Positions 1,108 through 25,356 of a DNA stretch of 27,985 nucleotides are shown here, piece by piece; position 1 is the first letter of the stretch, and each line of letters starts with the position of its first letter. A model generated the notes under the pieces. That model was not told the DNA's origin. It ran no database searches and saw only the letters and a program-made list of their open reading frames with translations. This DNA is from a virus. The stretch covers positions 1 through 27,985 of the IMG/VR virus record IMGVR_UViG_3300025133_000488; one strand, given 5' to 3'. Both the position numbers and the translations under genes were made by a program.

Positions 1108-1640
1108 TTATTTACATTCTCCAGCAATTTCACATGAGCATTTTGAATTTCGTCTGGCCATTTTCTATTACTTTCTTGATAATTCCATTCTGGATATTTA
1201 TTCATCACTTCATGATAATCACTTAAACACTTATGTTCCATTTCTTTGAATGGAGAAACGCTCACTCGTTCTTCTGACATTAGTCCTTTAACTTCAGCAA
1301 TAATATTTTCAGATATTATCATATAAACCTCAACAGACTTATTTAATTTTATGTTTTCAACAATATGACAATTTACACCAAAGGATCTAATGGATGGTCT
1401 TCCCGTATTACCCCCAAGATAAAATTGGAGAGTGGTTTTGATCCCACCCTTTGATTGGGATCCTCCAATCTTATAAATTTCTCCATCTATTGTCATTAGA
1501 TATACTCTTCCGGCATTATTTTTTAAAACCTGAGAGTCGAGATTGGGGTCGTATTTCATTCTTAGATTCGATTTTGTTTTCTTATCATTAAGAATAATTT
1601 CACCAATATACACAGCATTTATAACCCTGTCTATATTCAT
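1104..1640 (-). CDS. GIY-YIG-like putative restriction or homing nuclease next to the methylase
   Basis: The 178-residue protein has GRVYLM at about residues 44-49 followed by EIYKIGGS at 54-61, the spacing of the two conserved strands of GIY-YIG nucleases, then R81 in a GRPSIRSF segment and a C-terminal CLSDYHEVMNKYPEWNYQE block. In GIY-YIG enzymes the two tyrosines, an arginine and a later glutamate form the active site; the last two cannot be assigned with certainty here. The chosen ATG at 1640 overlaps the upstream stop by 4 nt; an in-frame ATG at 1658 is the alternative. Its stop overlaps the methylase start, an arrangement suggesting a coupled R-M pair. A free-standing homing nuclease is also possible. 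Confidence 0.55.
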   Translation of the reverse strand: MNIDRVINAVYIGEIILNDKKTKSNLRMKYDPNLDSQVLKNNAGRVYLMTIDGEIYKIGGSQSKGGIKTTLQFYLGGNTGRPSIRSFGVNCHIVENIKLNKSVEVYMIISENIIAEVKGLMSEERVSVSPFKEMEHKCLSDYHEVMNKYPEWNYQESNRKWPDEIQNAHVKLLENVNK

Positions 1641-2260
1641 TTGTCGATGTCTTGCCAATTCTTATCAGCAGCACGATGCATCGCCCAGACTCCCATACCA
1701 TTACCTGGATCAGAGACTTCATTCCCGACTTCCTCAAAGATGAACGGACGACCATTCACCATCGAAGTATAGATGGGAGAGGTGTGACCAAGACGACCGC
1801 GCTCAAACTCATCTTTCTTTCCATATCCAGGCCATGCATTATCACATTTGTTCGTACCAATCAGATATCCCTTTGCAGGATTATTCTTGATGTTTACATC
1901 CATTGCGCCCTTCTGGACGAACAAGATAGAATCCTGCTCAAACTCTTTGCCAAGTTTCCGTAGTTCCTTCTCCAGACTACCAGAGTCCTTCAAGTCTACC
2001 ACAAAGTAAGACTCTTCCTTACCGACACTGCCACCTTCAGGATAGGTTCCCTTTAATTTAGTAACACCATATCCCTTGCTCTTGAGTTTCGCAAGAAGAG
2101 ACTTGTTGCGTTGTGCATTTTCTTTCTTGGTGTATGGTTCGCCATTACCACAATCAGGTGCCTTACGGAACGCTGTCAATGCGCCACAATCGTGTTCGTG
2201 ATTATGCTTCCATAGACGAGAGAGTGATGACTCGTTGATGAATTGTTTATAGTCTTTCAT
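1637..2260 (-). CDS. DUF3293-like protein with T4-type capsid-targeting leader
   Basis: The 207-residue protein starts [10 protein letters not shown], sharing six of ten positions (M1, K2, Y4, F7, I8, E10) with the T4 internal-protein leader MKTYQEFIAE that is removed by the prohead protease after (I/L)xE. The body has the DUF3293-type pattern: LTAFR near residue 30, ENAQRN, a GTYPEGG turn, EESYFVVDL and a later [14 protein letters not shown]3293 has no established activity. If the leader works as in T4, the mature protein of about 197 residues is packaged with DNA and injected. It overlaps guaC upstream and the GIY-YIG gene downstream by 4 nt each. The family call is from pattern memory and is moderate. 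Confidence 0.55.
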
Positions 2261-3428: not shown

Positions 3429-3444
3429 TTTTCAATCTCCGAAG

Positions 3445-3519
3445 TAGGCTGGGTGAGATTCGAACTCACGAAAAAACATTGTTATAAGCAATGCTGCTGA
3501 TGCCATCCGCTTCCAGCCC
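3445..3519 (-). tRNA. tRNA-Ile(UAU), unusual D arm
   Basis: Minus-strand reading gives an acceptor GGGCTGG/CCAGCCT (one G-U pair), a perfect T arm GTGAG-TTCGAAT-CTCAC, and an anticodon stem CATTG/CAATG around loop CTTATAA, so the anticodon is UAU for the AUA codon. The length between acceptor and anticodon stems is a normal 19 nt and GG is present in the D loop, but the D stem pairs poorly and position 8 is A rather than U. CCA is not encoded. AUA is common in the AT-rich genes here, which fits a role in codon supplementation. Confidence 0.75.
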
Positions 3520-5787: not shown

Positions 5788-5795
5788 TATTTATA
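5788..5795 (-). promoter_or_regulatory. T4-type late promoter box TATAAATA
   Basis: An exact TATAAATA on the minus strand lies in the 20 nt between tRNA-Glu and the 58-residue membrane gene. In T4 this 8-mer alone defines late promoters read by the gp55/gp33/gp45-modified polymerase. The ATG follows 7 nt downstream, close to where transcription should start. Confidence 0.6.
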
Positions 5796-5800
5796 AAAAA

Positions 5801-5872
5801 TGACCCCAAGGAGAATCGAACTCCTGTTCCCAGGATGAAAACCTGATGTCCTAGCCGCTAGACGATGGGGCC
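5801..5872 (-). tRNA. tRNA-Glu(UUC)
   Basis: Minus strand: acceptor GGCCCCA/TGGGGTC with discriminator A, T arm GGAG-TTCGATT-CTCC inside, and anticodon arm CAGG-TTTTCAT-CCTG giving anticodon UUC. The conserved GG and TAG features of the D arm are present. CCA is not encoded. It is 6 nt from the basic 44-residue gene. Confidence 0.92.
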
Positions 5873-5878
5873 AAATTA

Positions 5879-6797: not shown

Positions 6798-6871
6798 CGG
6801 CGCAGACGAGACTTGAACTCGCAACCCCCGGCGTGACAAGCCGGTACTCTAACCAATTGAGCCACTGCACC
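6798..6871 (-). tRNA. tRNA-Asp(GUC)
   Basis: Minus strand: acceptor GGTGCAG/CTGCGCC with discriminator G, anticodon stem CCGGC/GCCGG around TTGTCAC giving GUC, and T arm with TTCAAGT loop. All arms fold canonically; CCA is not encoded. It is separated by 7 nt from tRNA-Asn and is probably processed from the same transcript. Confidence 0.93.
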
Positions 6872-6878
6872 TATGAAA

Positions 6879-6951
6879 CTCCCCCGGCAGGACTTGAACC
6901 TGCGACGAATCGGTTAACAGCCGATCACTCTACCAACTGAGTTACAGGGGA
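6879..6951 (-). tRNA. tRNA-Asn(GUU)
   Basis: Minus strand: acceptor TCCCCTG/CGGGGGA with discriminator G, anticodon stem ATCGG/CCGAT around CTGTTAA giving GUU, and T arm GCAGG-TTCAAGT-CCTGC. It is the first gene after the promoter at 7112-7140. CCA is not encoded. Confidence 0.93.
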
Positions 6952-8163: not shown

Positions 8164-9375
8164 TCAGAAGGGGCATTTGTTGTCGTCAGTGACTGCGGCA
8201 GTCTCTGCATTCTCATCCGTTCCTGCACGAAGATCAGCATCGATCTTCTCGTATAGACTCAGGAACGATTCCCGCGTCTCATCGTCAAACCGAGCAAGAC
8301 ACAAATTGATCGCTTTCTCACGCTCTCCGAAGATCGCGTATGCGTTCACGATGTCCACCAGACGGCGAGTAGAGATGATCTCATCCACTGCACCAGCATA
8401 GAATCCTTTGCGAACCGAATCAGACCAGGAGGTCAGATGATCGGCAAATTCAGCATCGCCCAGTCCCGCCTTGGTGAGAATCTTCTTCTCAGTGGACTTC
8501 GTTGGATAGGGTTGTTCAAACGTCACGGGGAAACGATCAAGCATCGCCTCATTCATAACACCAGTACCGACGAATCGTCCATCATCTGAACCCTTGCCTT
8601 TGGTATTAGCCGTGGCGAAGACGGTGAACCCGGCGGCGGGAGTGACCCACTGACCGATCTTCTTGAGGAATACACCCTTACCCTCAAGAACGGGTTGCAT
8701 GCACATCAGGTTGGCGGATCCGAGGTCAATCTCGTCCAGAAGCAGCACGCCACCATTCTTCATAGCGGAAACTACAGGACCATCCACCCATACGGTATTG
8801 CCGTTGATGAGGCGGAATCCACCCAGCAGATCGTCTTCGTCTGTCTGGCGCGTGATGTTCACGCGATAACATTCTCGCTTCAGTTTCGCACAAACCTGCT
8901 CCACCATGAGGGTCTTGCCGTTACCAGAAAGACCAGTCACGAAGATCGGGTAGAACTGCTTGGAGCGGACGATCTTCTCAACGTCAGAGAAGTGTCCCCA
9001 GGCGACATATCCGTCAAAGGCGGATGGGACGAGGGTAGCACGTTCGCCACCAGTCATACCCATCGTGAATGCTGCATTGGCAGCAGGAACGGACTCTACC
9101 GCACCCTGCGGTGCCACTGCGGGCACGGTGGCGCAAGCATTGGGCGCAGGGGCGGGAGTCTCGTCCTTCGGGGAAGCGGAGGCTATCTCAGGAATGTCGT
9201 AAAGACCCCGACCCGCTTTGCGGGTTGAGTCTTGCGTAATCCATGAAGGCGGGCATGTATAAATGCCCGTTGATTCACAAGCGGCGACTAGATCGGCGCG
9301 CGTGACTGGTGAAGTGCAACCCGCTGCCGCTAGGGCGTTCACGAATTGTTGAGGTCGTTGTTTGAGTTTCATCAT
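8164..9375 (-). CDS. MoxR/CobS-like AAA+ ATPase
   Basis: The 403-residue protein has an N-terminal winged-helix-like part (residues 5-60), an Ala/Pro-rich linker (65-105), then the AAA+ core with Walker A GLSGNGKT at 148-155, Walker B LLLDEID at 211-217 and a sensor-type TANTKGKG segment. This is the MoxR/CobS clade. CobS is the ATPase of aerobic cobaltochelatase and the name is often used for T4-like phage homologues, but no cobalamin genes are visible here. With the divergent VWA/HExxH protein it more likely forms a MoxR-VWA complex that remodels or processes protein targets. GGAGAC precedes two consecutive ATGs; transcription probably starts from the extended -10 at 9423. Confidence 0.85.
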   Translation of the reverse strand: MMKLKQRPQQFVNALAAAGCTSPVTRADLVAACESTGIYTCPPSWITQDSTRKAGRGLYDIPEIASASPKDETPAPAPNACATVPAVAPQGAVESVPAANAAFTMGMTGGERATLVPSAFDGYVAWGHFSDVEKIVRSKQFYPIFVTGLSGNGKTLMVEQVCAKLKRECYRVNITRQTDEDDLLGGFRLINGNTVWVDGPVVSAMKNGGVLLLDEIDLGSANLMCMQPVLEGKGVFLKKIGQWVTPAAGFTVFATANTKGKGSDDGRFVGTGVMNEAMLDRFPVTFEQPYPTKSTEKKILTKAGLGDAEFADHLTSWSDSVRKGFYAGAVDEIISTRRLVDIVNAYAIFGEREKAINLCLARFDDETRESFLSLYEKIDADLRAGTDENAETAAVTDDNKCPF

Positions 9376-9395
9376 GTCTCCGAAGGAAGGTCCGT

Positions 9396-9416
9396 GTCGC
9401 GGTTCCGTCCCGCGAC
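9396..9416 (-). promoter_or_regulatory. Leader hairpin of the AAA+ ATPase transcript
   Basis: GTCGCGG (9396-9402) and CCGCGAC (9410-9416) form a perfect 7-bp GC-rich stem with a 7-nt loop, placed between the -10 box and the GGAG ribosome site. It begins about 7 nt after the -10 box and would lie at the very 5' end of the mRNA, where it could stabilise the message. Confidence 0.6.
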
Positions 9417-9422
9417 CTGTGT

Positions 9423-9431
9423 ATTATAACA
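9423..9431 (-). promoter_or_regulatory. Extended -10 promoter (TGnTATAAT) for the AAA+ ATPase operon
   Basis: Minus strand TGTTATAAT followed by ACAC. No good -35 box lies 16-18 nt upstream, so recognition would depend on the extended -10. The same TGnTATAATACAC word occurs at the divergent VWA gene (9789-9797 onward). Confidence 0.6.
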
Positions 9432-9788
9432 GAAATTTGCCCTCATGTGGGGGTTAGGATAGACAAAATCCAGAAAATAAGGGTCAAATGACGTAAATAC
9501 CTGCAAATACAGCACTTGTGGAAGAAAATATAGTTTGTTCGGGTCTTGTTCGGTGCTTGTGTGCGTATAAAGACAGGAACGCGCACATGCACGCGCGAAT
9601 ACCATAATTATAACTCTGTGTCAATGGGTGAATGTTATAAAAATGGAAAAAAGAGTGAAATTAATGAAAAACACGGAGCAATTAACGATAAATCTATCCA
9701 TGTTTCGTGATTATCCTAGTGTCCGATAACAAAATCTTCGTTATTTTCCCATTTTGTCCATCCCAACCCCCATTTTAGGGTGAATTTG
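9432..9788. other. Divergent intergenic region between ATPase and VWA genes
   Basis: About 360 nt without a supported gene. One minus-strand open frame here has no ribosome site and poor composition. The region is moderately AT-rich and carries no clear repeats or hairpins besides the two extended -10 promoters at its edges. An operator for joint control could lie here, but none is visible. Confidence 0.4.
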
Positions 9789-9797
9789 TGGTATAAT
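9789..9797 (+). promoter_or_regulatory. Extended -10 promoter (TGnTATAAT) for the VWA gene, probably leaderless
   Basis: TGGTATAATACAC ends only a few bases before ATG 9805; 7 nt separate the -10 box from the ATG, so the mRNA should start at or within a few bases of it. No Shine-Dalgarno sequence is present. No good -35 box is visible. Confidence 0.65.
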
Positions 9798-9804
9798 ACA
9801 CGCG

Positions 9805-12033
9805 ATGAAACAGGGAACCCCTAACGTACGAACCGCCGCCAAGGACATCCTTGCGCGCCTCCTCGCGTCCGAAGACCTCACGGTCCAGCATGACGCATCT
9901 GCTGAGACAGCGTACTTTGACACTCAGAACCGTATTCTGTGCCTGCCCGTATGGGAAGACATGGATTCACACATGTATGACATGCTCGTCGGGCATGAAG
10001 TGTCCCACGCGCTGCATACGCCCGCCGATGGTTGGCAAGGATTCGTCGGTGACGATGCTAATTCACAATTGCGTCATATGTGCCTGAACGTCTGCGAAGA
10101 TGTCCGCATTGAACGCAAAATAAAAGATAAGTTTCCCGGACTCCGCCGTGACTTTGCCAAAGCATACAAGTCGCTGCATGAGCGGGATATCTTTGAAATG
10201 AAGGGTAAGTCAGTGTCTGACCTGCCTTTGATTGACCGCATCAACCTGTACTACAAGGGTGAGATCTACGGACAGATGAATATCCCATTCACCGCTGAAG
10301 AGCGGGAGTGGTTGACTCGTCTGGATGCTGCAAATTCCTTTGAGGATATCATGGAAGTCGCATCTGACCTCTTTGACGCAACCAAAGAAGAGCAAGAGCA
10401 GCAACAGCAGCAACAGCAAGTCCAATTGGACGAAAACGGCGAAGAATCAGCGCAAGGTGTCGGTGAAGGTGAGGGCGGTTCTGACTCTGAGAAGGGTGAG
10501 ACCTCCGAATCCGCATCTGGTGCTGGTGCTGGCGACGAACAAGGCGACAATGAGCAGGGCGAAGACTCTGGACAATCCGCTGATGACGATACCGACGATG
10601 GCGAGTCTGCTGATTCCCAACAAGGTGAGCAGTCCAGCGAATCTGGCGATGACCTGTCCTACGATTCCTATAATAATGACCCCTCACCTGGTTCCACTCA
10701 ACGGAACTACGAGAAGGCTCAAGATTCAATGCGGGATGATAATGCGAAGGAACATTGTTACTTCAACGTCCCACATGCCAACCTTGACAACATTATCATC
10801 TCCCCTACGCAAATTGCAGCAGTATGGGATGAATTTCTCAGTTCTACGCGGGGAGATCGGGACCAGTACGCTCGGTACGTCCAGTCCTGTCGGGAATTCA
10901 AGTCCAACTCCAAAGCAATTGTGAATCATATGGTTCAGCAATTCCAGCAGAAGCAAGCAGCGGACGCATCCAAGCGTTCCCATGTTGCGAAGACTGGCGT
11001 TCTTGATACCACTACGATGATCAACTATCGTTGGAGCGAAGACATCTTCCTCAAGAATGAAGTCCACTCAGACGGCAAGAATCACGGCATCGTCCTGTTC
11101 CTTGATTGGTCTGGTTCAATGAGTGGAATCCTCAAGGATACCATTGAGCAGTTGCTGATTCTTGTGGAATTCTGCCGCAAAGCAGGAATCCCCTACGAAG
11201 TATATGCATTCACTAGTTGCATGTTTAATGATGACTTCAATCACTACTGCCACAGCGAAGAAGCACTGAAAAAGCGTGAAGCATATTACGCCAATCAATT
11301 CGCCACTGACGATAATACATTGAGTCCTCACGGATTCCAATTGCTCAATTTCCTCAGTAGCAAGCAGAATGCAAAGCAGCATATTACTGCTGTTAACAAC
11401 CTCTACAATTGTGGTTGCAATAACTACCGCGTTCCACCAGTCCTACATCTCGGTTCCACTCCCCTGAATGAAGCAATCGTCGCTGGTTTGGAGATCGTCC
11501 CGCAGTTCCAAAGTGAGAACGCGATTCAGATCGTAAATACCATATTCCTCACCGATGGCGATGGACATAACATCCTCGGTAACGGATACTACAATTCCTC
11601 AAATAAGTTTATCCAAGATCCTGTGACCCGTAAGACCTATGCGGTTCGTAATAGTGATACCAACGCACTCATTCAATTGCTCAAGGACCGGACTGGTGCT
11701 AGTGCGATCAGCATCCGCTTGCACGATTCCAACAATATCAAATCCCTGCGATATCGCTACTTCTCTGGTAGTGATTGGGATACTGAGAATGCACAATTTG
11801 AGAAAGCGTGCAAAGCATACAAGACTGGACATCACTTCGTTCATGAGACTGGTGCATGGGATCTGAATCTGGTAGTCAAGGGCAACCTCAAGGTTGAAAC
11901 AGATCCGTTTGAGAATCTTCCCGGAGACGCGAGCAACACTCGGATTCGTAATGCATTCATCAAGGGTGGCAATCGTAAGAAGTCCAGTCGGGTGATCTCT
12001 AATCGGATCGTGGATGTGATTGCGGTAGGTTGA
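9805..12033 (+). CDS. CobT-like VWA-domain protein with HExxH metal site
   Basis: This 742-residue protein combines three parts. The N-terminal part carries HEVSH at residues 64-68 and a later NVCEDVRIERK helix, the layout of a zinc metallopeptidase site. Residues about 190-310 are low-complexity and rich in Gln, Glu, Asp and Ser. The C-terminal part is a von Willebrand A domain with a MIDAS DWSGS at 434-438 and FLTDGDG near 577. CobT of cobaltochelatase has a similar acidic linker and VWA domain, and T4-like phage relatives are named CobT or peptidase. Facing the AAA+ gene, it is the likely partner subunit. The HExxH suggests proteolysis rather than metal chelation, which is inference. It has no ribosome site. 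Confidence 0.8.
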   Translation: MKQGTPNVRTAAKDILARLLASEDLTVQHDASAETAYFDTQNRILCLPVWEDMDSHMYDMLVGHEVSHALHTPADGWQGFVGDDANSQLRHMCLNVCEDVRIERKIKDKFPGLRRDFAKAYKSLHERDIFEMKGKSVSDLPLIDRINLYYKGEIYGQMNIPFTAEEREWLTRLDAANSFEDIMEVASDLFDATKEEQEQQQQQQQVQLDENGEESAQGVGEGEGGSDSEKGETSESASGAGAGDEQGDNEQGEDSGQSADDDTDDGESADSQQGEQSSESGDDLSYDSYNNDPSPGSTQRNYEKAQDSMRDDNAKEHCYFNVPHANLDNIIISPTQIAAVWDEFLSSTRGDRDQYARYVQSCREFKSNSKAIVNHMVQQFQQKQAADASKRSHVAKTGVLDTTTMINYRWSEDIFLKNEVHSDGKNHGIVLFLDWSGSMSGILKDTIEQLLILVEFCRKAGIPYEVYAFTSCMFNDDFNHYCHSEEALKKREAYYANQFATDDNTLSPHGFQLLNFLSSKQNAKQHITAVNNLYNCGCNNYRVPPVLHLGSTPLNEAIVAGLEIVPQFQSENAIQIVNTIFLTDGDGHNILGNGYYNSSNKFIQDPVTRKTYAVRNSDTNALIQLLKDRTGASAISIRLHDSNNIKSLRYRYFSGSDWDTENAQFEKACKAYKTGHHFVHETGAWDLNLVVKGNLKVETDPFENLPGDASNTRIRNAFIKGGNRKKSSRVISNRIVDVIAVG

Positions 12034-12479: not shown

Positions 12480-12503
12480 ATAGTATACATTTTTAGTTTA
12501 TTT
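12479..12503. repeat. 25-bp direct repeat, copy 1 (vestigial gene start)
   Basis: Identical to 12747-12771. On the minus strand each copy spans the stop of one gene and the start codon context of the next (TAAACTAAAAATGTATAC). After this copy the reading frame is broken by the terminator stem, so it marks a lost third gene copy or a junction left by recombination. Confidence 0.8.
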
Positions 12504-12758
12504 ATGATTGATTCTATCTTGTCTTGGAGGAAGTGCATTCTTCACGCGGCTGTTGGTGGGATGGGTATCCAGTAGATTACCAACTTTTTTTGCAACCTTT
12601 TTTGCAACATCTGCTACCTTACCTTCATCAACAAAATCTCTTACAGCATCAGCAGTCTCTAACAACTCATTGAATGCTTCCATGATATCTTCATCGGACG
12701 TAGACTCATTGAGTTCGTCACCAAAGTAACCTTCAAGATATTCTAGTATAGTATACAT
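12498..12758 (-). CDS. Acidic helical LNE-repeat protein, shorter tandem paralogue (86 residues)
   Basis: After MYTILE comes the domain YLEGYFGDELNESTSDEDIM...LLETADAV, nearly identical to the upstream gene, then a Lys/Val-rich stretch (VADVAKKVAKKVGNLL) and a basic tail. It lacks the 30-residue N-terminal part of its paralogue. There is no ribosome site; the ATG is 7 nt after the upstream stop, so it may depend on reinitiation. The LNE triplet fits a T4-type prohead protease site, which could place it among prohead core proteins. Function unknown. Confidence 0.65.
   Translation of the reverse strand: MYTILEYLEGYFGDELNESTSDEDIMEAFNELLETADAVRDFVDEGKVADVAKKVAKKVGNLLDTHPTNSRVKNALPPRQDRINHK
12643..12743. 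repeat. 101-bp duplicated coding segment, copy 1
   Basis: This segment and 12971-13071 align without gaps with about ten mismatches over 101 bp (about 90 % identical). Both encode the YLEGYFGDELNEST domain of the two tandem paralogues, showing recent duplication. Confidence 0.8.
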
Positions 12759-12771
12759 TTTTAGTTTATTT
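12747..12771. repeat. 25-bp direct repeat, copy 2
   Basis: Identical to 12479-12503. It spans the stop codon of the 129-residue gene and the start codon of the 86-residue gene on the minus strand. The pair defines a 268-bp unit that contains the shorter gene. Confidence 0.8.
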
Positions 12772-13155
12772 TATACCGGAAATATATGGTCCTGCGGCTT
12801 GTGATCTATTGAAAGCAAGCATTTCTGGACTCATTGGTTTCTTTCCCATAAGTTCGTCTCGTCTGCGGGCACGATCCGGACTCAGGGGTTTTTTATTCTT
12901 CGTCTTCGGTACGGCGGAACCCCTCTTTATAGAATCACCAGTTCCTATAAATTCTTTCAAATAATCTTTAACAGCATCAGCAGTCTCTAACAATTTAGCA
13001 AATGCTTCCATGATGTCATCTTCAGAAGTAGACTCATTGAGTTCGTCACCAAAGTAACCTTCAAGATATTCCATTACCAGTTGATCACGCTCAGTATTAT
13101 CAAGGTTAACTACGCTAATGATTGATTCTATAAGTTGTTGGTCGATTTTATCCAT
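12766..13155 (-). CDS. Acidic helical LNE-repeat protein, longer tandem paralogue (129 residues)
   Basis: Residues 1-30 are an amphipathic helix (MDKIDQQLIESIISVVNLDN), followed by MEYLEGYFGDELNESTSEDD and a helical LLETADAVKDYLKEF, then a basic Pro-rich tail with two KPLSPD/KPMSPE segments (two short, similar motifs). A GAAGGA ribosome site precedes ATG 13155. The DELNES motif resembles the (L/I)xE cleavage site of T4-like prohead proteases. Related domains occur twice in the gene at 15337-15771. I associate such sequences with T4-like marine phages, function unknown. Confidence 0.7.
   Translation of the reverse strand: MDKIDQQLIESIISVVNLDNTERDQLVMEYLEGYFGDELNESTSEDDIMEAFAKLLETADAVKDYLKEFIGTGDSIKRGSAVPKTKNKKPLSPDRARRRDELMGKKPMSPEMLAFNRSQAAGPYISGIK
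12971..13071. repeat. 101-bp duplicated coding segment, copy 2
   Basis: Partner of 12643-12743, about 90 % identical, encoding the homologous domain in the 129-residue gene. Confidence 0.8.
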
Positions 13156-14235: not shown

Positions 14236-14724
14236 TTCTTTACCAGAAGTATCCAGACCTACCATTTGAAGAGCAAGTCTCTTTGGTTTGGTAGGTTTGT
14301 TTTTTAGTTCCATGTCACATTCCTTGAGAAGTTTGTGTCCCTTCTTACAATTGCAGGTTGGACATGCAGTGACAAGATTTGTCCATTGTGTTCCACCACC
14401 CTTTGATTGTGGATAAACGTGATCTATTGTGAGTTTCTTGGGATTCTTTGACACGAACCCACAATACTGACATGTCCAGTTGTCTCGTTTGAAGATGTTT
14501 CTTCTTGTGGGCGAGTGGTCCTCGTAAGGTAAATACACAAAACGAACAAGGACGATTGCAGCGGGTATCTTGTACTCACCGCGAACCGTCCTAATGGAAT
14601 AAGTTTTATTGTAGTTATATGGTTTCGTTGCTTTCCCTGCGGAGAGCAACTTAACAGCCTTCTTCCAGTCTATGACTTTTAGGATTTCTTCGCTGGAATT
14701 GAGTAGAAGTACGTCTCTGCTCAT
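14209..14724 (-). CDS. HNH endonuclease with zinc ribbon
   Basis: The 171-residue protein has an N-terminal domain common to HNH proteins (MSRDVLLLNSSEEIL...W..A), then C85-x2-C88, the catalytic LTIDHVYPQ with D101-H102, N116 in WTNLVTACPTCN, C121-x2-C124 and H130. These give an HNH metal site and a structural zinc knuckle. It cuts DNA, as a free-standing homing nuclease or in genome processing; no intron or intein is visible nearby. The ribosome site is weak (GAGAA). It is the last gene of the minus unit 15771-14209. Confidence 0.88.
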   Translation of the reverse strand: MSRDVLLLNSSEEILKVIDWKKAVKLLSAGKATKPYNYNKTYSIRTVRGEYKIPAAIVLVRFVYLPYEDHSPTRRNIFKRDNWTCQYCGFVSKNPKKLTIDHVYPQSKGGGTQWTNLVTACPTCNCKKGHKLLKECDMELKNKPTKPKRLALQMVGLDTSGKELWSRWFNL

Positions 14725-14744
14725 GTGGCATTTCTCATGTATTA

Positions 14745-14942
14745 CTATCTCTTTCTATTAGTTTCCTGATAACGACGAAAAGCAGCAGCAATTTCCCTTG
14801 TGTTTGCTGCTCCCCTGGGATTTAGTTTTAATTGCTTTTTTAATTGCTTTTTTATGACAGCATGATTAAACTTAATAGGATCATCATGCTGTCTAATTAG
14901 CCGAAGCAATGGACCTTCTGTTAAGTGTTTATATGATGTCAT
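14745..14942 (-). CDS. Small basic protein with possible capsid-targeting leader, 65 residues
   Basis: The start MTSYKHLTE resembles the T4 leader in length, the Tyr at position 4 and a closing LTE. The remainder is strongly basic (IKKQLKKQLKLNPRGAANTR) and ends NRKR, as expected of a DNA-associated internal protein. The gene abuts the next upstream gene (stop and start share base 14942). No family is recognised; internal virion protein is a hypothesis. Confidence 0.6.
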   Translation of the reverse strand: MTSYKHLTEGPLLRLIRQHDDPIKFNHAVIKKQLKKQLKLNPRGAANTREIAAAFRRYQETNRKR

Positions 14943-15340
14943 TATGATGTCTTTATGCCGTTTTCACTTGTTTTTGCAATCATCAATTTACGAATTCTTT
15001 CCGACTCTGATTTTCTCATACGGGGTAAGAGTTTCTTGGCAAGTTTTGATATTGCATTTTTCTTTTTATCCAATGCTTTTGAGACAGTTTGTTTTTGTCC
15101 CAAACTCATTTGTGAATATGGCGTATCACCAAACAACTTTTTAATGAGTTTATTTCGTGCTGACTTGCTAGCCTTCGCTTTAAGTTGGTCGCCAGTCTTT
15201 ATTCTCATTTGCTTTCTTTTACGAGTGTTGGCTCTTCTTTTTGCAGTTCTTCTAGCAGCACGAGCCATTTTACGGCGAGTATCCATAGATATCGCTTCAT
15301 TCAAAAGCATAGTTATAAGATATTCCCTAGTTTCGTTCAT
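14942..15340 (-). CDS. Highly basic conserved T4-like phage protein with LNE leader, 132 residues
   Basis: The first 15 residues (MNETREYLITMLLNE) end in LNE followed by AIS, a likely prohead-protease site. The rest is very basic: RRKMARAARRTAKRRANTRK at about 22-41, then YSQMSLGQKQTVSKAL and KLAKKLLPRMRKSE. I know this layout (Lys/Arg cluster, YxxLS..K, I..IAKRLLPxVRK) from many T4-like marine phages, without function. Charge and leader suggest a DNA-condensing prohead core or internal protein. It overlaps the acidic upstream gene by 4 nt, so a basic and an acidic protein are made together. Confidence 0.75.
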   Translation of the reverse strand: MNETREYLITMLLNEAISMDTRRKMARAARRTAKRRANTRKRKQMRIKTGDQLKAKASKSARNKLIKKLFGDTPYSQMSLGQKQTVSKALDKKKNAISKLAKKLLPRMRKSESERIRKLMIAKTSENGIKTS

Positions 15341-15771
15341 TCATCTGAAAAATATAAATCAAACGCTTCACAAACCAATGCAAGTTGATCGAATGCTTCT
15401 TCAATTTCTTCTTTTTGCACATCCTCATTAAGCGAATCGGCAAAATACGAGTTGAGGTACTCATCAACAACTGGTTCTAACTCTTCATCGCCAGTTTCAG
15501 CATACTCTAAAACACATGCATATACTTCCTTATATGCATTGACACACTCCACTACTGATTCATTAATGTCCTCTTCGCTTGAAGATTCGTTCAACGAATC
15601 GCCCACATATAAATCAATATGTTCAAACACGAAATCCTCAAGATTATTTATGTCGATCTCTTCTTTAGTCTCTTTAGTCTCTTTAGTCTCTTTAGTCTCC
15701 CATAGATTCTGGGGGTTCTTAGAGACTTCTTCTAATCCTTGAAGATGCATTAAAAAATCATTTTTATTCAT
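15337..15771 (-). CDS. Acidic protein with two LNE-type repeats and KET repeat, 144 residues
   Basis: Residues 24-36 are a TKE-type tripeptide repeat encoded by four 9-bp units. Two copies of the roughly 40-residue domain follow: IDLYVGDSLNESSSEEDI and YLNSYFADSLNEDVQKEEI, each continued by a helical acidic part. They match the domain of the paralogues at 12498-13155. LNES and LNED may be prohead-protease sites. Acidic, helical and cleavable proteins occur in T4 prohead cores, but the role here is inferred. It is the first gene of the operon, with AAAGGA and a good promoter upstream. Confidence 0.7.
   Translation of the reverse strand: MNKNDFLMHLQGLEEVSKNPQNLWETKETKETKETKEEIDINNLEDFVFEHIDLYVGDSLNESSSEEDINESVVECVNAYKEVYACVLEYAETGDEELEPVVDEYLNSYFADSLNEDVQKEEIEEAFDQLALVCEAFDLYFSDE
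15663..15698. repeat. Four perfect 9-bp tandem repeats (CTTTAGTCT)
   Basis: Four head-to-tail copies inside the acidic 144-residue gene encode alternating Lys-Glu-Thr on the minus strand. The unit is a multiple of three, so copy-number change would lengthen the linker without frameshift. Confidence 0.85.
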
Positions 15772-17432: not shown

Positions 17433-18113
17433 ATGGAAAAACAAAAGCAATTTACGCATAGAGAAAAAGAATGGAATTTGGAAGAGATGTCGGCAACGAC
17501 TAATACCGGAATCCGCTTATACAATTCCCCAATCGGCAATCTTCCAAGTGTCACGACTGTAACCGGATGGAAGAAGAAGGATTTCTTTGCTGAGTGGAGA
17601 AAAAACAATCCAAAAGAATCCAAGAGAGTGTGTGACCGAGGAAATGTAATTCACGACACTATAGAGCATTATCTCAACAATGAAAATGTTGATGTGGAAT
17701 CTATACCGAAACTTGAGGCGGAAATGTTTACGAACGCTCTTTCTGAACTGAACAGAATAGACAACATATATGAATTGGAAACGTCTCTGTGGTCTGAACT
17801 TCTTGGTCTTGCTGGTCGTGTTGATTGTATCGCTGAGTTTGATGGTAAACTATCCGTGATAGACTTCAAGGGAAGTACCAAAAAGAAATCAAAGAAATAC
17901 ATTAGTAACTATTTTCTTCAAGCGACTGCATATGCTATTATGTTTCAAGAAAGAACCGGTATTGAAATTGACAATATTGTGATTCTTGTAACATGCGAGG
18001 GTGGTCCGGTTCAGGTTTTTGAAGAAGAACCCAAACGATATATAAAATTGTTACACCACACAATAAAAGAGTACCGCAATGAAAATGAAATGCCTCAGCA
18101 CCTTCCTGTCTGA
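17433..18113 (+). CDS. PD-(D/E)XK exonuclease, RecB/MGME1-like
   Basis: The 226-residue protein has the RecB-type nuclease layout: H74 in DRGNVIHDTIE, E117 in ELETSLW, LAGRVDCIAEFDGKL with D131, then VIDFKGS with D144 and K146, and the helix YFLQATAYAIMF with Q163. The first part (LPSVTTVTGWKKK) is typical of MGME1-like phage exonucleases. It should digest single-stranded or duplex DNA ends using two metal ions, in recombination or replication. The start at 17433 follows AAGGTG; the open frame begins earlier but overlaps the promoter. Its last 29 nt overlap the ligase-like gene. Confidence 0.88.
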   Translation: MEKQKQFTHREKEWNLEEMSATTNTGIRLYNSPIGNLPSVTTVTGWKKKDFFAEWRKNNPKESKRVCDRGNVIHDTIEHYLNNENVDVESIPKLEAEMFTNALSELNRIDNIYELETSLWSELLGLAGRVDCIAEFDGKLSVIDFKGSTKKKSKKYISNYFLQATAYAIMFQERTGIEIDNIVILVTCEGGPVQVFEEEPKRYIKLLHHTIKEYRNENEMPQHLPV

Positions 18114-19272
18114 ATCTAAAAATACACACCTAGAACATATTGAAGATTCTATCTTCATGAGTTCAGATGAAGTGAAAGATTCTATTCGTTTCCTGACTTC
18201 ATTGCGAAACATGCTCGGGGGACATTCATCAAAAGGTATTGGTCTTACCGTCAAGTGGGATGGCGCACCCGCAATCATTTGTGGGAAGGATCCAGAAAAT
18301 GGTAAGTTTTTTGTTGGAACAAAAAGTGTATTTAACAAAACTCCCAAAATCAATTACACCAATGCAGACATTAACAAAAATCATAGTGGTGGATTAGCAG
18401 ATAAACTTAAAATTGCACTAAAGCATTTATCTAAATTAGAAATCACCGGCGTTCTTCAAGGTGATTTAATGTTCACTGAGGGCGATTTCGTCTCAAAAGA
18501 AATTGATGGTGAACAATTCATCACTTTCACCCCAAATACAATTACATATGCTGTGTCAGAAAATAGTTTATTGAGCAGCAAACTTAAGCGAGCAAAGATG
18601 GGGATTGTATTCCACACAGAATATAAAGGCAGAACCATTCAAACAATGAGAGCATCCTTCGGTCCCAAACTACGACTTAAGAAAAGCAATGATGTTTGGT
18701 ATGATGATTCGTCGTTTAAGGACTTTTCTGGAGTCAATTTATCTTCATCGGATATAAATAAATTTGATGCATCGTTAACAAATGCAACATCTCTCATCAA
18801 ACGTGTGGGTCGCTTCTTGGATTCCATTGAACCTAATGTCCAGTCTCTTCTTAAAATATACATCAATTCCAAAGTGCGAGTAGGCACGCTAGAGGTTTCA
18901 CATAATGATTTTGTGAAATATGTCAATGGTGTGTATGAGGGAAAGATTGATAAGTTGGGAAGTGATGCAGGAAAGTCTCGAAAGAAGAAAGAATTAGATT
19001 CTATCGTCTCAACGTTGAATTCACAATCTTCGAAATATGACGATATGTTTGATTTATTTGGGGAACTTTTAGTGTTAAAAAACATTATTGTTAGTCAACT
19101 CAATAAAATCAAGGGCAAAATGAAAACTTTCGTAAAGACAGACTCTGGATATAAAATCACTGCCCCTGAAGGATTTGTAAGTATTGACCAAAAATCCGAC
19201 AAAGCATTTAAGTTGGTTGACAGACTTGAATTTTCAAAAAACAACTTTACCGTTGCAAAAAATTGGGATTAA
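18085..19272 (+). CDS. Ligase-fold nucleotidyltransferase-like protein (DUF6267-like) with capsid-targeting leader
   Basis: The start MKCLSTFLSE is a ten-residue leader with F7, L8 and E10 like T4 MKTYQEFIAE; ATG 18079 is the alternative. Then THLEHIEDSIF and LRNMLGGHSSKG lead to VKWDGAPAIICG, in which K57-W-D-G60 matches the nucleotide-binding KxDG motif of ATP-dependent DNA/RNA ligases. LQGDLMF at 124-130 and GIVFHTEYKG near 173 sit where motifs III and IV fall, though Glu of these motifs is replaced. I know this family from T4-like marine phages (DUF6267); activity is unproven. Fold assignment fairly good, ligase activity uncertain. 395 residues. Confidence 0.75.
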   Translation: MKCLSTFLSESKNTHLEHIEDSIFMSSDEVKDSIRFLTSLRNMLGGHSSKGIGLTVKWDGAPAIICGKDPENGKFFVGTKSVFNKTPKINYTNADINKNHSGGLADKLKIALKHLSKLEITGVLQGDLMFTEGDFVSKEIDGEQFITFTPNTITYAVSENSLLSSKLKRAKMGIVFHTEYKGRTIQTMRASFGPKLRLKKSNDVWYDDSSFKDFSGVNLSSSDINKFDASLTNATSLIKRVGRFLDSIEPNVQSLLKIYINSKVRVGTLEVSHNDFVKYVNGVYEGKIDKLGSDAGKSRKKKELDSIVSTLNSQSSKYDDMFDLFGELLVLKNIIVSQLNKIKGKMKTFVKTDSGYKITAPEGFVSIDQKSDKAFKLVDRLEFSKNNFTVAKNWD

Positions 19273-19860: not shown

Positions 19861-19890
19861 GCAGAGAGATTAATAGTCTCTCTGCTTTTT
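19861..19890 (+). terminator. Rho-independent terminator before the 1109-residue gene
   Basis: GCAGAGAGA (19861-19869) and TCTCTCTGC (19877-19885) form a perfect 9-bp stem with a 7-nt loop, followed by five T. It ends only 24 nt before ATG 19914, so that gene needs read-through or its own promoter; a TATATAAAA sequence at 19892-19900 is near the late box. Confidence 0.85.
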
Positions 19891-19913
19891 ATATATAAAA
19901 TGGAGGTTTGCGC

Positions 19914-22900
19914 ATGAAAACTGCTGTATTTACATTTGGTAGATTTAATCCACCAACCATAGGTCATGTTAAATTGATTACTAAAGTAAAGAAGACTGCT
20001 CGCTCTGTGGGTGGTGATTCTTTCATATTTGCAAGTCCGTCTCATGACAGCAAAAAAAATCCATTGACGTACAATTCAAAAGTCAAACTCTTAACCAAAA
20101 TAGCAAGAAAAAGTAATGTCATAAACAACGATGAAATAAGAACCCCGTTCCATGCATTAGCATACCTAAGTGCATTGAATTATGATACCATTTATATGGT
20201 TGTGGGTTCCGATAGAGTGAAAGAATTTGAACGAAATATGTCCAAGTATATTGGAAGTGGGGAATACAAGAACATTAAAAAAATTGTCGTGGTGTCTGCT
20301 GGTGAACGCGACCCCGATGCAGAAGGCGTTTCTGGTATGTCCGCGTCTAAAATGAGACAAGCAGTGGTAGATGATAATTTAAACACATTTCAATCAGGAA
20401 TGCCAACAATGATTAATAAAAGAGAAGTCCAACGAGTATTTCAAGAAATAAAAAGAAACATGAATATCCGAGAATGGGTAGATATAGATGAACTCTATGC
20501 ATTTATATGTGAACATGGTCATCGATTCACAGAAGATATAAACAACCTATTTGAAGCAAACGAATTGTCCGTGTATGTTGTTCGCACCAAAGAGAATGAT
20601 GTTGAAATAACAAGACATATTAGTGGGGATGTTAAAAAGGTATTGGGTAGAAGTAAGGAAGGTACATCCGAGAAAGCAAAGGATGCCCCCATACTCAGTA
20701 AAGGTTCCATTAAAAGTATAATTCGACCTGCTATTCAAAAAGGTGAGTTTAGAGTTACACCCACGGCAAAAGAATTCCTTGATGATGAAATAATCAAAGC
20801 AGCAAAAACAAGTTATATTGGGAATACTAGTGAATATGAAAAGGATGTAGAGAAGAAAGACGACACTTCTTCCAAAGAAGAAAGAAAAGACACAACAAGA
20901 AGTGTTCCAACACCCGTTTCCACATCACCAATAAAACGCAAGAGTATGGATATTAAACCACAAGGTGCAAAAGTTAGTGTTAGTGAATTGTCCATAAATG
21001 ATTTAACAACACAATATGGTGTGTTGAAGAAAAAGGGTGGAAATTTAGGTCTTCAGTTAGAATTCGCAACAGTATTATTGGCTCGTATCGCAACAGGACA
21101 AGATATTGAGGATCTCCGTAATGATCCTAAATTCTTTACATTCTCAGAAGAGGCACTTGAACAAGCAAAGGGATGTATAAGTCAACTCGGACCCGAATGT
21201 CTACAAAATCTAAAGCACTCCACAGAGGTAGATGTTAGAGGAATTAACGGGGGCGAACCAAAGACAGATCTTTTATGTGGCGACAATCGCTTCAGTATGA
21301 AGGCAGATGGCGGATATCAATTCTCTTCTGCTAATTATTCAACAACCGGAAAAGAATTTAGAAGAGCATTAGAAACCACAGCCCAACGAGTAAGTGAAAA
21401 TCCTTCTTTAAAAAGCAACAAGTATGTTCAAGAGGGTATACTAAAAATGGTAGAGTCTCTAGAGGCTTTCCCAAAGTATCTCCTAAACCAAGAAAAAATT
21501 GATGCTAAGGTAGGGGAAAATCCTGAAATCATTGAAACCCTACAAAATACCCCAATCGAATATGACGATGGTAGAGATGCCGGTATGATGATGTTAGAGG
21601 ATGGTTCAATAAATCCAGAATGTGACTTTATAAGTGCAAGAGAACATCTTGATTCTGCGTGTTCAGAATTTTTAGATAATTATAATAAGGCTCCAGACGA
21701 ACAAGAAGAATTTATGCGTCTGTTTAAAGAAGAGTTAACACATGTGCAGGTAACCGGAGAAGGACTAGGCTTCGACGACGAAAGAGCAGCAGCATCGCAT
21801 GTGTTAACACCAACAGGGATCTATGCAGCAACAAGAAAGTATTCTAAAGATCTGGCCGAAGTTAACACACTTCGTCTTTCTGTTAAAGAGAAAAAGTTCG
21901 GGCTTGTGAAATTTGCAAAGGGTGTGGCCAAGAAACTCAAAGGCAGAAAAGCCGTAGACGCTGGACAACGAACATCAGTACGCTCTGAAGTACGGGCGGG
22001 CGAAGGACTCAAAAGAGCAAAAGAGTTAGCAAATAGTCATAAAGTTCAGATAGAACAAATCGACCAGCAGTTCAGCAACTTGATGGAAGCAAATGGAATT
22101 GATATCTCCTCACTAGGAACTACAACAGAAGATGTTAAAAATTCTGTTAATGAAGAAGACTTTACTCACACTATGGTAGGTGTATCTAACATAGAACTAG
22201 ACATGTCTTATATTCCTGGTGTGTCTATAGATGATATGACAAATAGTGCTTCTAGAAAAAATACAATCAGGATAAATGGGAAAGATATTATAATAGAAGT
22301 TGAACCAGAGGAAATTCCTTCATTGATTAATCATGAAAATTCTGTTAATGAAGAATTTAATCTCATATTTGAAGTCCAAGATAGAGCAGACGAAGAAGAC
22401 ACAAAGTCAGCAAAGAAAAGAGAACGATCCAACCAAAAGACACGCCGAACAAAAGAACAACATCAGAACTCTTCAGATGAAGAATTTACTTCAATAAAGA
22501 AACCAAAAGCAGAAACTGACGTAGATGCAAGATTTGAAACGGAAATTGATGACCCCTTGATGTCTAGATCTGGAGAATGGATAGGACTAGAACCAGACAT
22601 GAAGTTAGACAGAGCAAAGGAAATCAAAGACGCTCTTTATGAATTGTTAGCAGATGAAGAAATGGCGGAAAAGTTAGATCCGAATGATAAGTACGTCAAA
22701 GAGTGGTATATCAAAACCCGACCATTTTACGATGCTTACATTGAGGACGAAAAAAGCGTCACCATGTATAGTACCGCGTCTGATGTGAAGGATATTATCA
22801 ATAATTGGGAAAGTCTTGACAAGCAATATGATAACATCTCAAAAAAGGTAAAGAAGACTGGTGTAAAGAAATCTACTGCTCATATCCGCGACTTTGATCC

Positions 22901-23243
22901 GCCAGAACCTCCTGAAGAACCCGCAGCAGAAGGGGGGGAAGAGAAGCAACCGGTGGATGAATCATTCTCTAACCTGTTTGAAAAGAATGCAAAAATTGAA
23001 ATGGCTCTTCCAGGATATCCATACCAAAATGATAATTGGGAAGTGGGATATCCGCCAAGACCCGTGAAGATTAAAAGAAAAACAAATGAAGACTATGGTT
23101 CCGGTTTTGATGGAACGTCTGATTACGTTAGAAAACTCATAAAAGACACACCTGGTGCAGAAGAACCTGATTTTCTCAAAAAACAAAAAAAGGGTGAGTC
23201 CAAAGAAACTAAATGCAGTAAGGGAACTGCGAATCGCGTCTAA
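19914..23243 (+). CDS. Nucleotidyltransferase/nuclease-like protein with repeated prohead-protease-like sites
   Basis: ATG 19914 follows GGAGG at 19902-19906; the TTG at 19908 is rejected. Residues 1-170 are a cytidylyltransferase-like domain: FTFGRFNPPTIGH with T15-x-G-H18 and a late SASKMR at 143-148, equivalent to the (I)SSTxxR motif of NadM/NMNAT-type enzymes that transfer nucleotides. Near 450, PKTDLLCGDNRFSMK gives D452 and S461-M-K463, a PD-(D/E)XK-like pattern known from phage nucleases. Four related sites, NNLFE (E214), SNLME (E725), NLIFE (E820) and SNLFE (E1023), match (L/I)xE cleavage sites and separate five segments. Hence it may be a virion polyprotein. Substrates unknown. 1109 residues. 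Confidence 0.75.
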   Translation: MKTAVFTFGRFNPPTIGHVKLITKVKKTARSVGGDSFIFASPSHDSKKNPLTYNSKVKLLTKIARKSNVINNDEIRTPFHALAYLSALNYDTIYMVVGSDRVKEFERNMSKYIGSGEYKNIKKIVVVSAGERDPDAEGVSGMSASKMRQAVVDDNLNTFQSGMPTMINKREVQRVFQEIKRNMNIREWVDIDELYAFICEHGHRFTEDINNLFEANELSVYVVRTKENDVEITRHISGDVKKVLGRSKEGTSEKAKDAPILSKGSIKSIIRPAIQKGEFRVTPTAKEFLDDEIIKAAKTSYIGNTSEYEKDVEKKDDTSSKEERKDTTRSVPTPVSTSPIKRKSMDIKPQGAKVSVSELSINDLTTQYGVLKKKGGNLGLQLEFATVLLARIATGQDIEDLRNDPKFFTFSEEALEQAKGCISQLGPECLQNLKHSTEVDVRGINGGEPKTDLLCGDNRFSMKADGGYQFSSANYSTTGKEFRRALETTAQRVSENPSLKSNKYVQEGILKMVESLEAFPKYLLNQEKIDAKVGENPEIIETLQNTPIEYDDGRDAGMMMLEDGSINPECDFISAREHLDSACSEFLDNYNKAPDEQEEFMRLFKEELTHVQVTGEGLGFDDERAAASHVLTPTGIYAATRKYSKDLAEVNTLRLSVKEKKFGLVKFAKGVAKKLKGRKAVDAGQRTSVRSEVRAGEGLKRAKELANSHKVQIEQIDQQFSNLMEANGIDISSLGTTTEDVKNSVNEEDFTHTMVGVSNIELDMSYIPGVSIDDMTNSASRKNTIRINGKDIIIEVEPEEIPSLINHENSVNEEFNLIFEVQDRADEEDTKSAKKRERSNQKTRRTKEQHQNSSDEEFTSIKKPKAETDVDARFETEIDDPLMSRSGEWIGLEPDMKLDRAKEIKDALYELLADEEMAEKLDPNDKYVKEWYIKTRPFYDAYIEDEKSVTMYSTASDVKDIINNWESLDKQYDNISKKVKKTGVKKSTAHIRDFDPPEPPEEPAAEGGEEKQPVDESFSNLFEKNAKIEMALPGYPYQNDNWEVGYPPRPVKIKRKTNEDYGSGFDGTSDYVRKLIKDTPGAEEPDFLKKQKKGESKETKCSKGTANRV

Positions 23244-23279: not shown

Positions 23280-23759
23280 ATGAGAAAATTCAAAGAACTA
23301 AGAGACTTTCTTAAAGAAAGTGAATATACACCAACTACTGACACTTGGCAATCGGCATATAGTGACTATGGTGTATATCGGATTGAGAATGAAGAGCAAT
23401 TGAATAAAATCAACGCATTCATTCACACTTTCACCGAAAGATCATTCATTGAACCTAGACATGCTATGTCCCAACTCAGACAAAAGTTGAATCTTGCTGG
23501 GTTGGATTTTGAAATGCCGAGCAACAACTCCATCAAAGAAGGTACGACTTCCTATAAAATCAATCGGTTCGGTGGTGAGTTTGGTACTACACCAACACAC
23601 AACCTCATGAAGAATGGTTTTTACAAAGGTGATGGTATATCTCACAATAACAATGGTGTCGGTATGTCTCTACAATGCACTTATGACGTTAATGAGTCTG
23701 GTCTTTATAAAATAAAGGCAATGATTGTTCCTGATAATAAACCTAACAATGAAGAATAA
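23280..23759 (+). CDS. Conserved phage protein with capsid-targeting-like leader, 159 residues
   Basis: The start MRKFKELRDFLKE ends in LKE followed by S, a probable prohead-protease site, and AAAGGAG precedes the ATG. The body has YGVYRIENEEQLNKINAFIH and PRHAMSQLRQKLNLAGLDFE, a pattern I remember from T4-like phages (YRxxNxEQLxRINxF...RxKLNxxGLxF) without known function, then a Gly/Asn-rich C-terminal part with NLMKNGFYKGDGI. It would be an internal virion protein if the leader functions. It starts the gene string 23280-26027. Confidence 0.65.
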   Translation: MRKFKELRDFLKESEYTPTTDTWQSAYSDYGVYRIENEEQLNKINAFIHTFTERSFIEPRHAMSQLRQKLNLAGLDFEMPSNNSIKEGTTSYKINRFGGEFGTTPTHNLMKNGFYKGDGISHNNNGVGMSLQCTYDVNESGLYKIKAMIVPDNKPNNEE

Positions 23760-24729: not shown

Positions 24730-24874
24730 TAAAAACAGAAACAACCCTCCGGTGAGACAGAGGGTGATTAAAAAAACAATAAACTCCAACGTCAGACCAA
24801 AAAAGAAAGTCCCACCCCAACAAATAACTAGCAACACGAACTACAAGAACCCAACACCGAGGAAGAGAAAATGA
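24713..24874 (+). CDS. Small basic Cys-motif protein, 53 residues
   Basis: The frame overlaps the previous gene by 17 nt and the next start by 4 nt (ATGA), as in a tightly coupled operon, and an AGG lies 9 nt before the ATG. It begins MGCGCNKNRNN and is then rich in Lys, Arg, Pro, Asn and Gln, ending RKRK. Small MGCGC-type basic proteins occur in other T4-like phages as I recall. Function unknown; the two cysteines could bind metal or form a disulfide. Confidence 0.6.
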   Translation: MGCGCNKNRNNPPVRQRVIKKTINSNVRPKKKVPPQQITSNTNYKNPTPRKRK

Positions 24875-25356
24875 AAACATTTGGTCAACTAATAAATGAA
24901 ATAACAAACGTTGCTAACCCTGCTGCAATTACTGGATTGGGTAATGAGCCTCCAGTACATCCAGAAAAGAAAAAGGACAAGTTTGCTGGATGCAGTGTGT
25001 TTGATGTTACTCCCAACGAGTATGCCAAGTGTATGCGTGGTCGCATGAAGTTTGAACGTTGGGGGAATAAATTGAACATGGAAGACGCACACAATTCTGA
25101 AATTCGTTCTTATTCTCACAAGAATCCGGGTTCACCTGTTATTGTACGAAATCAAATGACTGGTGAAATGTCATATCTTATTCCAAAAAGAGTAGACGAA
25201 AATTCTCCCAATCCAGAAAATATTAGCAAACGATTAGATGACCTTCGTGCAAAAAACACAAGAATCGATGATGCAAAAAGAAAAGAAAAAATAGGATTCG
25301 TGACCATAGTTGGTCAGGGTACTAGCACGGTAGCAAAACGACCCCAAGATGTGTGA
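24871..25356 (+). CDS. Conserved phage protein with capsid-targeting leader, 161 residues
   Basis: The start MKTFGQLINE matches the T4 leader at M1, K2, T3, I8 and E10, with INE as the predicted cleavage point. The body has CSVFDVTPNEYAKCMRGRMK, ERWGNKLNMED and HKNPGSPVIVRNQMTGEMSYL, a pattern I know from other T4-like phages, without function; the tail is basic and helical. It starts with ATGA coupling to the 53-residue gene and GAGGAAGAG upstream. The mature protein would be about 151 residues and packaged. Confidence 0.7.
   Translation: MKTFGQLINEITNVANPAAITGLGNEPPVHPEKKKDKFAGCSVFDVTPNEYAKCMRGRMKFERWGNKLNMEDAHNSEIRSYSHKNPGSPVIVRNQMTGEMSYLIPKRVDENSPNPENISKRLDDLRAKNTRIDDAKRKEKIGFVTIVGQGTSTVAKRPQDV

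Follow-up and report, generated by a model that had tools for sequence, protein, structure and literature searches.

A candidate head-cargo precursor with four internal prohead-protease-type sites in a Kyanoviridae-like phage

The viral DNA studied here (IMG/VR record IMGVR_UViG_3300025133_000488, positions 1 to 27,985) is referred to in its full length of 27,985 nucleotides as the window. Its neighbour genes and closest relatives identify it as a fragment of a Kyanoviridae-like phage, that is, of the T4-related phages that infect cyanobacteria, SAR11 and Methylophilales. An open reading frame (ORF) at 19914-23243 on the plus strand (ATG at 19914, stop codon at 23241-23243) encodes 1109 residues, and this protein is probably a packaged precursor of head cargo that is cut by the head protease; we infer its packaging, cleavage and injection, as well as the roles of its cargoes. 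In the proposed sequence of events, flexible linkers, each ending in a prohead-protease site, would connect a nucleotidyltransferase to a nuclease-like middle domain and these to two or three more segments, and the precursor would be built into the prohead core. The gp21-type protease of the phage would then cut after E214, E725, E820 and E1023 at head maturation, and the products would remain inside the head among the packaged DNA until they pass into the host together with the genome. The linkers would double as evolutionary joints where phages swap, acquire or lose cargoes.

Which proteins phages inject, and how these are loaded and renewed, is an open question beyond T4 and a few giants. 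If the proposal is true, LxE junctions together with the comparison of free and fused forms would amount to a sequence rule predicting injected cargo in abundant marine phages, and the exchange of cargo between phages would be explained. A multi-cargo precursor would then be the capsid counterpart of the polyproteins of eukaryotic viruses, with the head protease doing the cutting. No description of such a precursor was found in the literature searched.

Sites and segments of the 1109-residue protein

An earlier note made from the DNA letters had reported the ORF of 1109 residues with (L/I)xE sites at E214, E725, E820 and E1023, and all of these were confirmed. The codons of the four Glu residues lie on the plus strand at 20553..20555 (FTEDINNLFE|A, the bar marking the putative cut), 22086..22088 (IDQQFSNLME|A), 22371..22373 (VNEEFNLIFE|V) and 22980..22982 (VDESFSNLFE|K), and divide the protein into segments of 214, 511, 95, 203 and 86 residues. 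The processing rule of T4, where the function of the leader has likewise been described, is L/I-x-E (PMC9026906), and all four triplets (LFE, LME, IFE and LFE) agree with it. The pattern FxxL/IxE occurs three times against 0.51 expected, at least three being reached in 31 of 2000 shuffles, and [NDQ][EQ]xFxx(hydrophobic)x[ED], a motif defined after looking, occurs three times against 0.03 expected. Because both counts exceed expectation, the likeness of the site contexts, which had been claimed for all four, does go beyond chance, mainly for three of them; E214 is without the Phe, and the claim does not extend to (L/I)xE triplets as such (see below).

Position in predicted unfolded linkers is a further mark of substrates of S77/gp21-type prohead proteases. 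In the AlphaFold model all four sites lie where the predicted local distance difference test (pLDDT) is below 50 (residues 210-218, 723-725, 792-829 and 982-1068, respectively), as against one of the seven other LxE triplets (chance of four out of four, 0.015), so that the sites stand outside confident folds, as the earlier note had asked. The model as a whole is only moderately good (mean pLDDT 64) and draws on few sequences, so that low pLDDT beyond the first domain is due in part to the shallow alignment.

The N-terminal cytidylyltransferase-like domain proposed earlier is well supported. Residues 1-187 (20474 being the last base; 19914..20474, plus strand) form a NadD/cytidylyltransferase-like nucleotidyltransferase domain with TxGH and SASKMR motifs, which matches Pfam PF01467 (2.4e-9) and PHROG 3041 (1.4e-54), is modelled with a pLDDT of about 90, and finds NadD and FAD synthetase in Foldseek. 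It combines a Rossmann-like fold with the (H/T)xGH and SxxxxR motifs; G17, H18 and S143 are invariant and R148 nearly so. CTP_transf_like was the only domain returned by a Pfam scan of the 1109-residue protein. The next recognizable unit is a small module in the AlphaFold model at residues 219-302 (20568..20819, plus strand), which is duplicated in L001 (E=7e-7), one of the related loci that we designate by L numbers.

The middle domain (PHROG 22045; residues 355-710, 20976..22043, plus strand) carries a PD-(D/E)XK-like set of residues, namely E383, D452 (in PKTD), S461-x-K463 and Q469. The E, PKTD, SxK and Q are invariant in 11 proteins, and Ser replaces the D/E of (D/E)xK. A structure search yielded no PDB match below E=0.4, and the BFVD matches were cyanophage homologues only; the PD-(D/E)XK-like pattern pointed out earlier therefore stands as a set of invariant residues without a matching PDB fold, and the motif is suggestive of a PD-(D/E)XK nuclease. 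Nothing useful came from comparing the nucleotidyltransferase, the middle domain or an extra segment of L001 (described below) with PDB sequences.

The remainder of the chain had been described as three charged segments, a wording that proved loose. Segment 3 (residues 726-820; 22089..22373, plus strand) is mostly of low model confidence and acidic (K+R 5%, D+E 20%), segment 4 (residues 821-1023; 22374..22982, plus strand) is a helical candidate cargo of mixed charge with helical stretches at residues 827-852 and 885-981 of the model, and the C-terminal segment 5, of 86 residues, is basic. Segment 5 contains a module, EDYGSGFDGTSDYVRKLIKDTPG (residues 1059-1081; 23088..23156, plus strand), of the form EDYGxGFxGTxxYxxKLIKDTPG, which is likewise C-terminal in L001, L005, L006, L085, L086, L128 and L068 despite their differing upstream parts and is a candidate packaging signal. 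The module also resembles the TPGQ motifs of other Kyanoviridae nucleotidyltransferases. Among annotated phages, the C-terminal 899 residues had a direct match only to Melnitz, and a weak one; a search for relatives of segments 4 and 5 returned the L005 contig only.

Cargo exchange, free and fused forms, and virion evidence

L005, the one relative in IMG/VR with a matching layout, is very similar to the window protein in parts: segment 1 is 86% identical, segments 2 and 3 are 31-33%, segment 4 is 73% and segment 5 is 80% identical. Its sites read LFE, LVE, LLE and LIE, so that (L/I)xE is kept at four of four, sites 2 and 3 amid otherwise low identity; the conservation of the sites in homologues, which had been proposed as a check, is thus borne out in this relative. 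In L001 (L/I)xE is found at two of the four sites, and the Glu preceding the putative cut (P1) is kept at three of four; site 2, for example, is FSVLVE in L005 and FMVMME in L001. At the DNA level, a stretch about 82% identical between the window and L005 ends at 20557, two nucleotides past the E214 codon, and identity resumes at 22368, three bases ahead of the E820 codon, which makes sites 1 and 3 exchange borders. Base by base, there is some divergence within the 15 codons before E214, and the border at E820|V is sharp.

An independent second pair shows the same at the counterpart of site 4. L001 and L128 are 96.6% identical over the 900 nucleotides leading up to this site and diverge inside the P1 codon. 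In L128, GIFE|K leads into an HNH domain, behind which comes the conserved C-terminal module; L001 has DMFD|A, with the C-terminal module almost immediately after it and no HNH cargo. Site 4 thus corresponds to a border of cargo presence and absence, and the canonical Glu is absent where the HNH cargo is absent. Similarly, HNH cargo starts directly after NESFSALFE in L006, DESFINFME in L085 and NESFNLVFE in L086.

L001 (about 9301-10290) and L128 (154-1119) also hold an extra cargo of ~330 residues with a pattern picked out by eye (MYRVYYDDGTL, SWTLSS, EQEVII). An ADP-ribosyltransferase was considered for this segment in L001 (R, an S-T-S-like stretch and EQE, by eye) and found no support from Pfam, PHROG or PDB sequence.

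Several cargoes occur in free as well as in fused form. A basic protein encoded in the window (14942..15340, minus strand) has a leader a few residues in from its start (YLITMLLNE|AISMDTRRKM), and its homologues are either free with LxE leaders or fused, mostly behind a nucleotidyltransferase (L017, L062, L068, L072, L073, L051, L067, L020 and L045). Free or fused, 18 of 19 proteins have (L/I)xE in a common alignment column at this junction. Stand-alone nucleotidyltransferases often bear T4-type leaders (MKKFSEIIE|A, MKTYKNLIKE|A, MKFKDFLAE|K and others; MKKFSAFLTE|A in S-RIM50). In L019 and L069, KTYEEFIKE|VKGGTAVFTFGRF is internal, behind another domain, and its near-copy in L020, KSYENLIKE|VKGGTAVFTFGRF, is an N-terminal leader. 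The middle domain is free, with the leader MQGFKTFLSE|A, in Melnitz-type phages. The DUF6267 protein of the window (18079..19272, plus strand; Pfam PF19782, 2.7e-111; PHROG 455) has the leader MKMKCLSTFLSE|S and is fused to a nucleotidyltransferase in some phages, and in other phages the nucleotidyltransferase has as its fusion partner either a zeta-type kinase or a RimK ligase with a protease-like domain.

These comparisons invite a wider reading, which we offer tentatively and rate a little below an even chance: T4-like marine phages may possess a plug-in cargo system, in which (N/D)ExFxxLxE linkers would serve both as protease sites and as joints of effector cassettes, and one precursor would yield several injected proteins in equal numbers. 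Across phages, the cargoes of such a system would comprise nucleotidyltransferase, nuclease-like, HNH, basic DNA-binding-like, zeta-type kinase and RimK-type ligase modules.

Evidence from virions comes from the relative S-CREM2, whose virion proteomics detected a cytidylyltransferase (gp154), a SAM hydrolase, a kinase and a Cas9-annotated protein (PMC10665884). Leader and virion detection go together in the first three and in gp13. The cytidylyltransferase, SAM hydrolase and kinase begin with MKNFSSFLTE|A, MKDFDSFLEE|F and MKRFDAFLTE|E, respectively, a virion-detected SAM hydrolase start reads MKDFDSFLEEFDRDQESLEE|SSLSRL, and the Cas9-annotated protein has FASFMAE|A further in from its N-terminus. 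Across all S-CREM2 proteins, those with a leader are over-represented in the virion-detected set; the numbers are small, and p is about 0.03 or 0.007 according to the pattern and set used. A gp21-type protease was found in Melnitz, in S-CREM2 and in the records of two large IMG/VR relatives (L072 and L074). Four capsid proteins of relatives have FLSE|A, ALLE|A, ALFE|A and LLTE|A near the place where T4 gp23 loses its propeptide (the position being set by analogy), which agrees with an (L)xE|A rule like that of T4 (PMC9026906).

Two further observations concern these proteins. The virion-detected hypothetical protein gp160 of S-CREM2 (L122, 28342-29235) contains GATGFTGAAAPEGPVAGYDPLMG, which closely resembles the major capsid protein's N-terminal arm directly behind the presumed cut site. 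Several leader-bearing Kyanoviridae proteins carry a module LGLxYxGxGxYxDxxGKxTHRS after the leader or between domains (L124 4473-5501; L119 4705-9847, minus strand; L054; L066); its carriers include the S-RIM50 nucleotidyltransferase, the S-CREM2 virion kinase and the Cas9-annotated protein.

Alternative readings and known systems

Several results weigh against a precursor that is packaged and cleaved. The window protein, L001 and L005 have no N-terminal leader (about 7-19 residues ending in (L/I)xE) of the T4 capsid-targeting-sequence (CTS) type and their nucleotidyltransferase fold starts at once; in the window protein, candidates for the packaging signal are the NExF motifs inside the chain and the C-terminal module. 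The middle domain is leaderless in S-RIM50, DSL-LC02 and S-RS29, as is DUF6267 in S-RIM50, and may therefore work in the cytoplasm there; a cut site sought at the joint of the S-PM2 DUF6267-nucleotidyltransferase fusion was rejected, there being no LxE linker. (L/I)xE triplets alone are no commoner than chance would give, the protein having 11 and 13.6 being expected from shuffles. A weight matrix built from 23 N-terminal leaders ranks none of the four internal sites highly, which rejects the strict notion that these are internal copies of the leader; leaders and internal sites are thus alike in their LxE end and not elsewhere. Sites 2 and 4 of L001 (MME, MFD) depart from (L/I)xE, the equivalent of site 3 is FME in L085 and VFE in L086, and no prohead protease was found in the window. 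The earlier suggestion of a phage polyprotein matured in the capsid accordingly keeps the support of site conservation, disorder and LxE junctions, and is weakened by the missing leader, the missing protease and the L001 sites.

The strongest alternative, which we nevertheless regard as unlikely, is that the multidomain chain is never cut: it would be packaged and would enter the host in one piece, in the manner of the polyvalent proteins described by Iyer and colleagues, and the NExFxxLxE peptides would be core-binding targeting motifs or plain linkers. In the T4 leader, targeting residues (4 and 7) are separate from processing residues (8 and 10), and Asp at position 10 blocks processing and leaves targeting intact (PMC9026906); site 4 of L001 has Asp at P1. 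In a protein lacking an N-terminal leader, internal motif copies could be the packaging signal, and the position two residues before P1 (P3) varies among relatives (L, I, V, M, F). The retention of the P1 Glu, however, including at sites 2 and 3 where the surroundings have diverged, and the (L/I)xE column at the basic-cargo junction argue for cleavage. Polyvalent proteins of phages and conjugative elements similarly unite many unrelated activities in one chain and are thought to enter with the DNA, and the analogy to polyproteins has already been drawn for them (PMC5512222); they differ in having a domain set of their own and often embedded peptidase domains. Pfam found none of their hallmarks (MPTase, ART, DdrB-like ParB, Toprim and others) in the window protein, nor in L001, L005 or L006. 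In the window chain one enzyme fold is firm and a nuclease is indicated at the level of motifs, and the pieces would be released in trans, by the prohead protease.

It is quite improbable that the ORF encodes a cytoplasmic multifunctional enzyme, formed from fused neighbouring genes of nucleotide metabolism, in which LxE is incidental and the exchange borders are domain borders. In S-RIM50, DSL-LC02 and S-RS29, leaderless middle-domain and DUF6267-type proteins do stand beside a nucleotidyltransferase after primase/helicase and MazG genes, and LxE is common by chance. Yet the nucleotidyltransferases of S-CREM2 and S-RIM50 start with leaders, that of S-CREM2 is present in virions, LxE at homologous junctions is non-random, and the borders fall on or beside the P1 codon rather than just anywhere within a linker. 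Least of all do we credit borders produced by homing endonuclease (HNH) activity or ordinary recombination at conserved DNA patches, uninformative on protein processing: HNH cargo sits at the L001/L128 border, nuclease genes occupy boundaries of phage genetic exchange according to the title of PMC10448857, and the conserved motif-coding DNA could itself seed recombination, but the window/L005 borders show no HNH, the HNH concerned lies in frame within the protein between site and C-terminal module, and the kept Glu, the hydrophobic P3 and the LxE column shared by free and fused forms would go unexplained.

The proposed cleaved head-cargo precursor is best placed among known systems beside the T4 internal proteins IPI-III and Alt, which are delivered with the DNA after gp21 has removed their leader (Alt also loses a C-terminal piece). 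Head cargo and the L/I-x-E rule are common to both, and relatives of several window segments have such leaders; in T4, by contrast, each gene supplies a single cargo behind an N-terminal leader, as opposed to several cargoes, internal sites and no leader in the window. The T4 core proteins gp22, gp67 and gp68 are likewise cut by gp21 at L/I-x-E into several fragments (PMC9026906), but are scaffolds that are destroyed and mostly expelled, whereas the window pieces include folded enzyme-like domains. In the giant phage SPN3US, ejected head proteins are processed by gp245 (A-x-E), some at several sites (PMC10052503), although the processing there breaks up long propeptides that are then mostly lost, and each gene yields a single mature product. 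Finally, the Kyanoviridae cytidylyltransferases (PHROG 395/3041), represented by S-CREM2 gp154, are of the same nucleotidyltransferase family and virion-associated in S-CREM2; gp154 stands alone with a leader, and the window version is fused to other cargoes. The best reading is that the window protein works like the T4 internal head proteins, yet has neither their N-terminal leader nor the hallmark domains of polyvalent proteins.

Surroundings of the gene in the window

A Shine-Dalgarno sequence, GGAGG (19902..19906, plus strand), read from the sequence, precedes the ATG at 19914 and is adjoined on its upstream side by a terminator-like hairpin with a T-run (about 19861-19890). Besides the basic and DUF6267 proteins, leaders were found on a SAM lyase (1637..2260, minus strand; Pfam PF23780) and on proteins at 23280..23759 (MRKFKELRDFLKE|S) and 24871..25356 (MKTFGQLINE|I), both on the plus strand. 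The T4-type late promoter box TATAAATA occurs six times on the two strands of the window, against 1.46 expected (at 18753 and 24645 on the plus strand, and at 5788, 16375, 26769 and 27520 on the minus strand); none of the six is directly upstream of 19914.

Four tRNA genes were predicted on the minus strand by ARAGORN (Ile-TAT, 3444-3519; Glu, 5800-5873; Asp, 6798-6871; Asn, 6879-6951), the last three of which are backed by Rfam. Three small acidic proteins (12498-12758, 12766-13155 and 15337-15771, all on the minus strand) have a common repeated module (YLEGYFGDELNESTSDEDIMEAFNELLETADAV and similar), present twice in the protein at 15337-15771, and may belong to the scaffold or the core. L001 encodes a similar-looking protein at its far end (14717-15346, minus strand).

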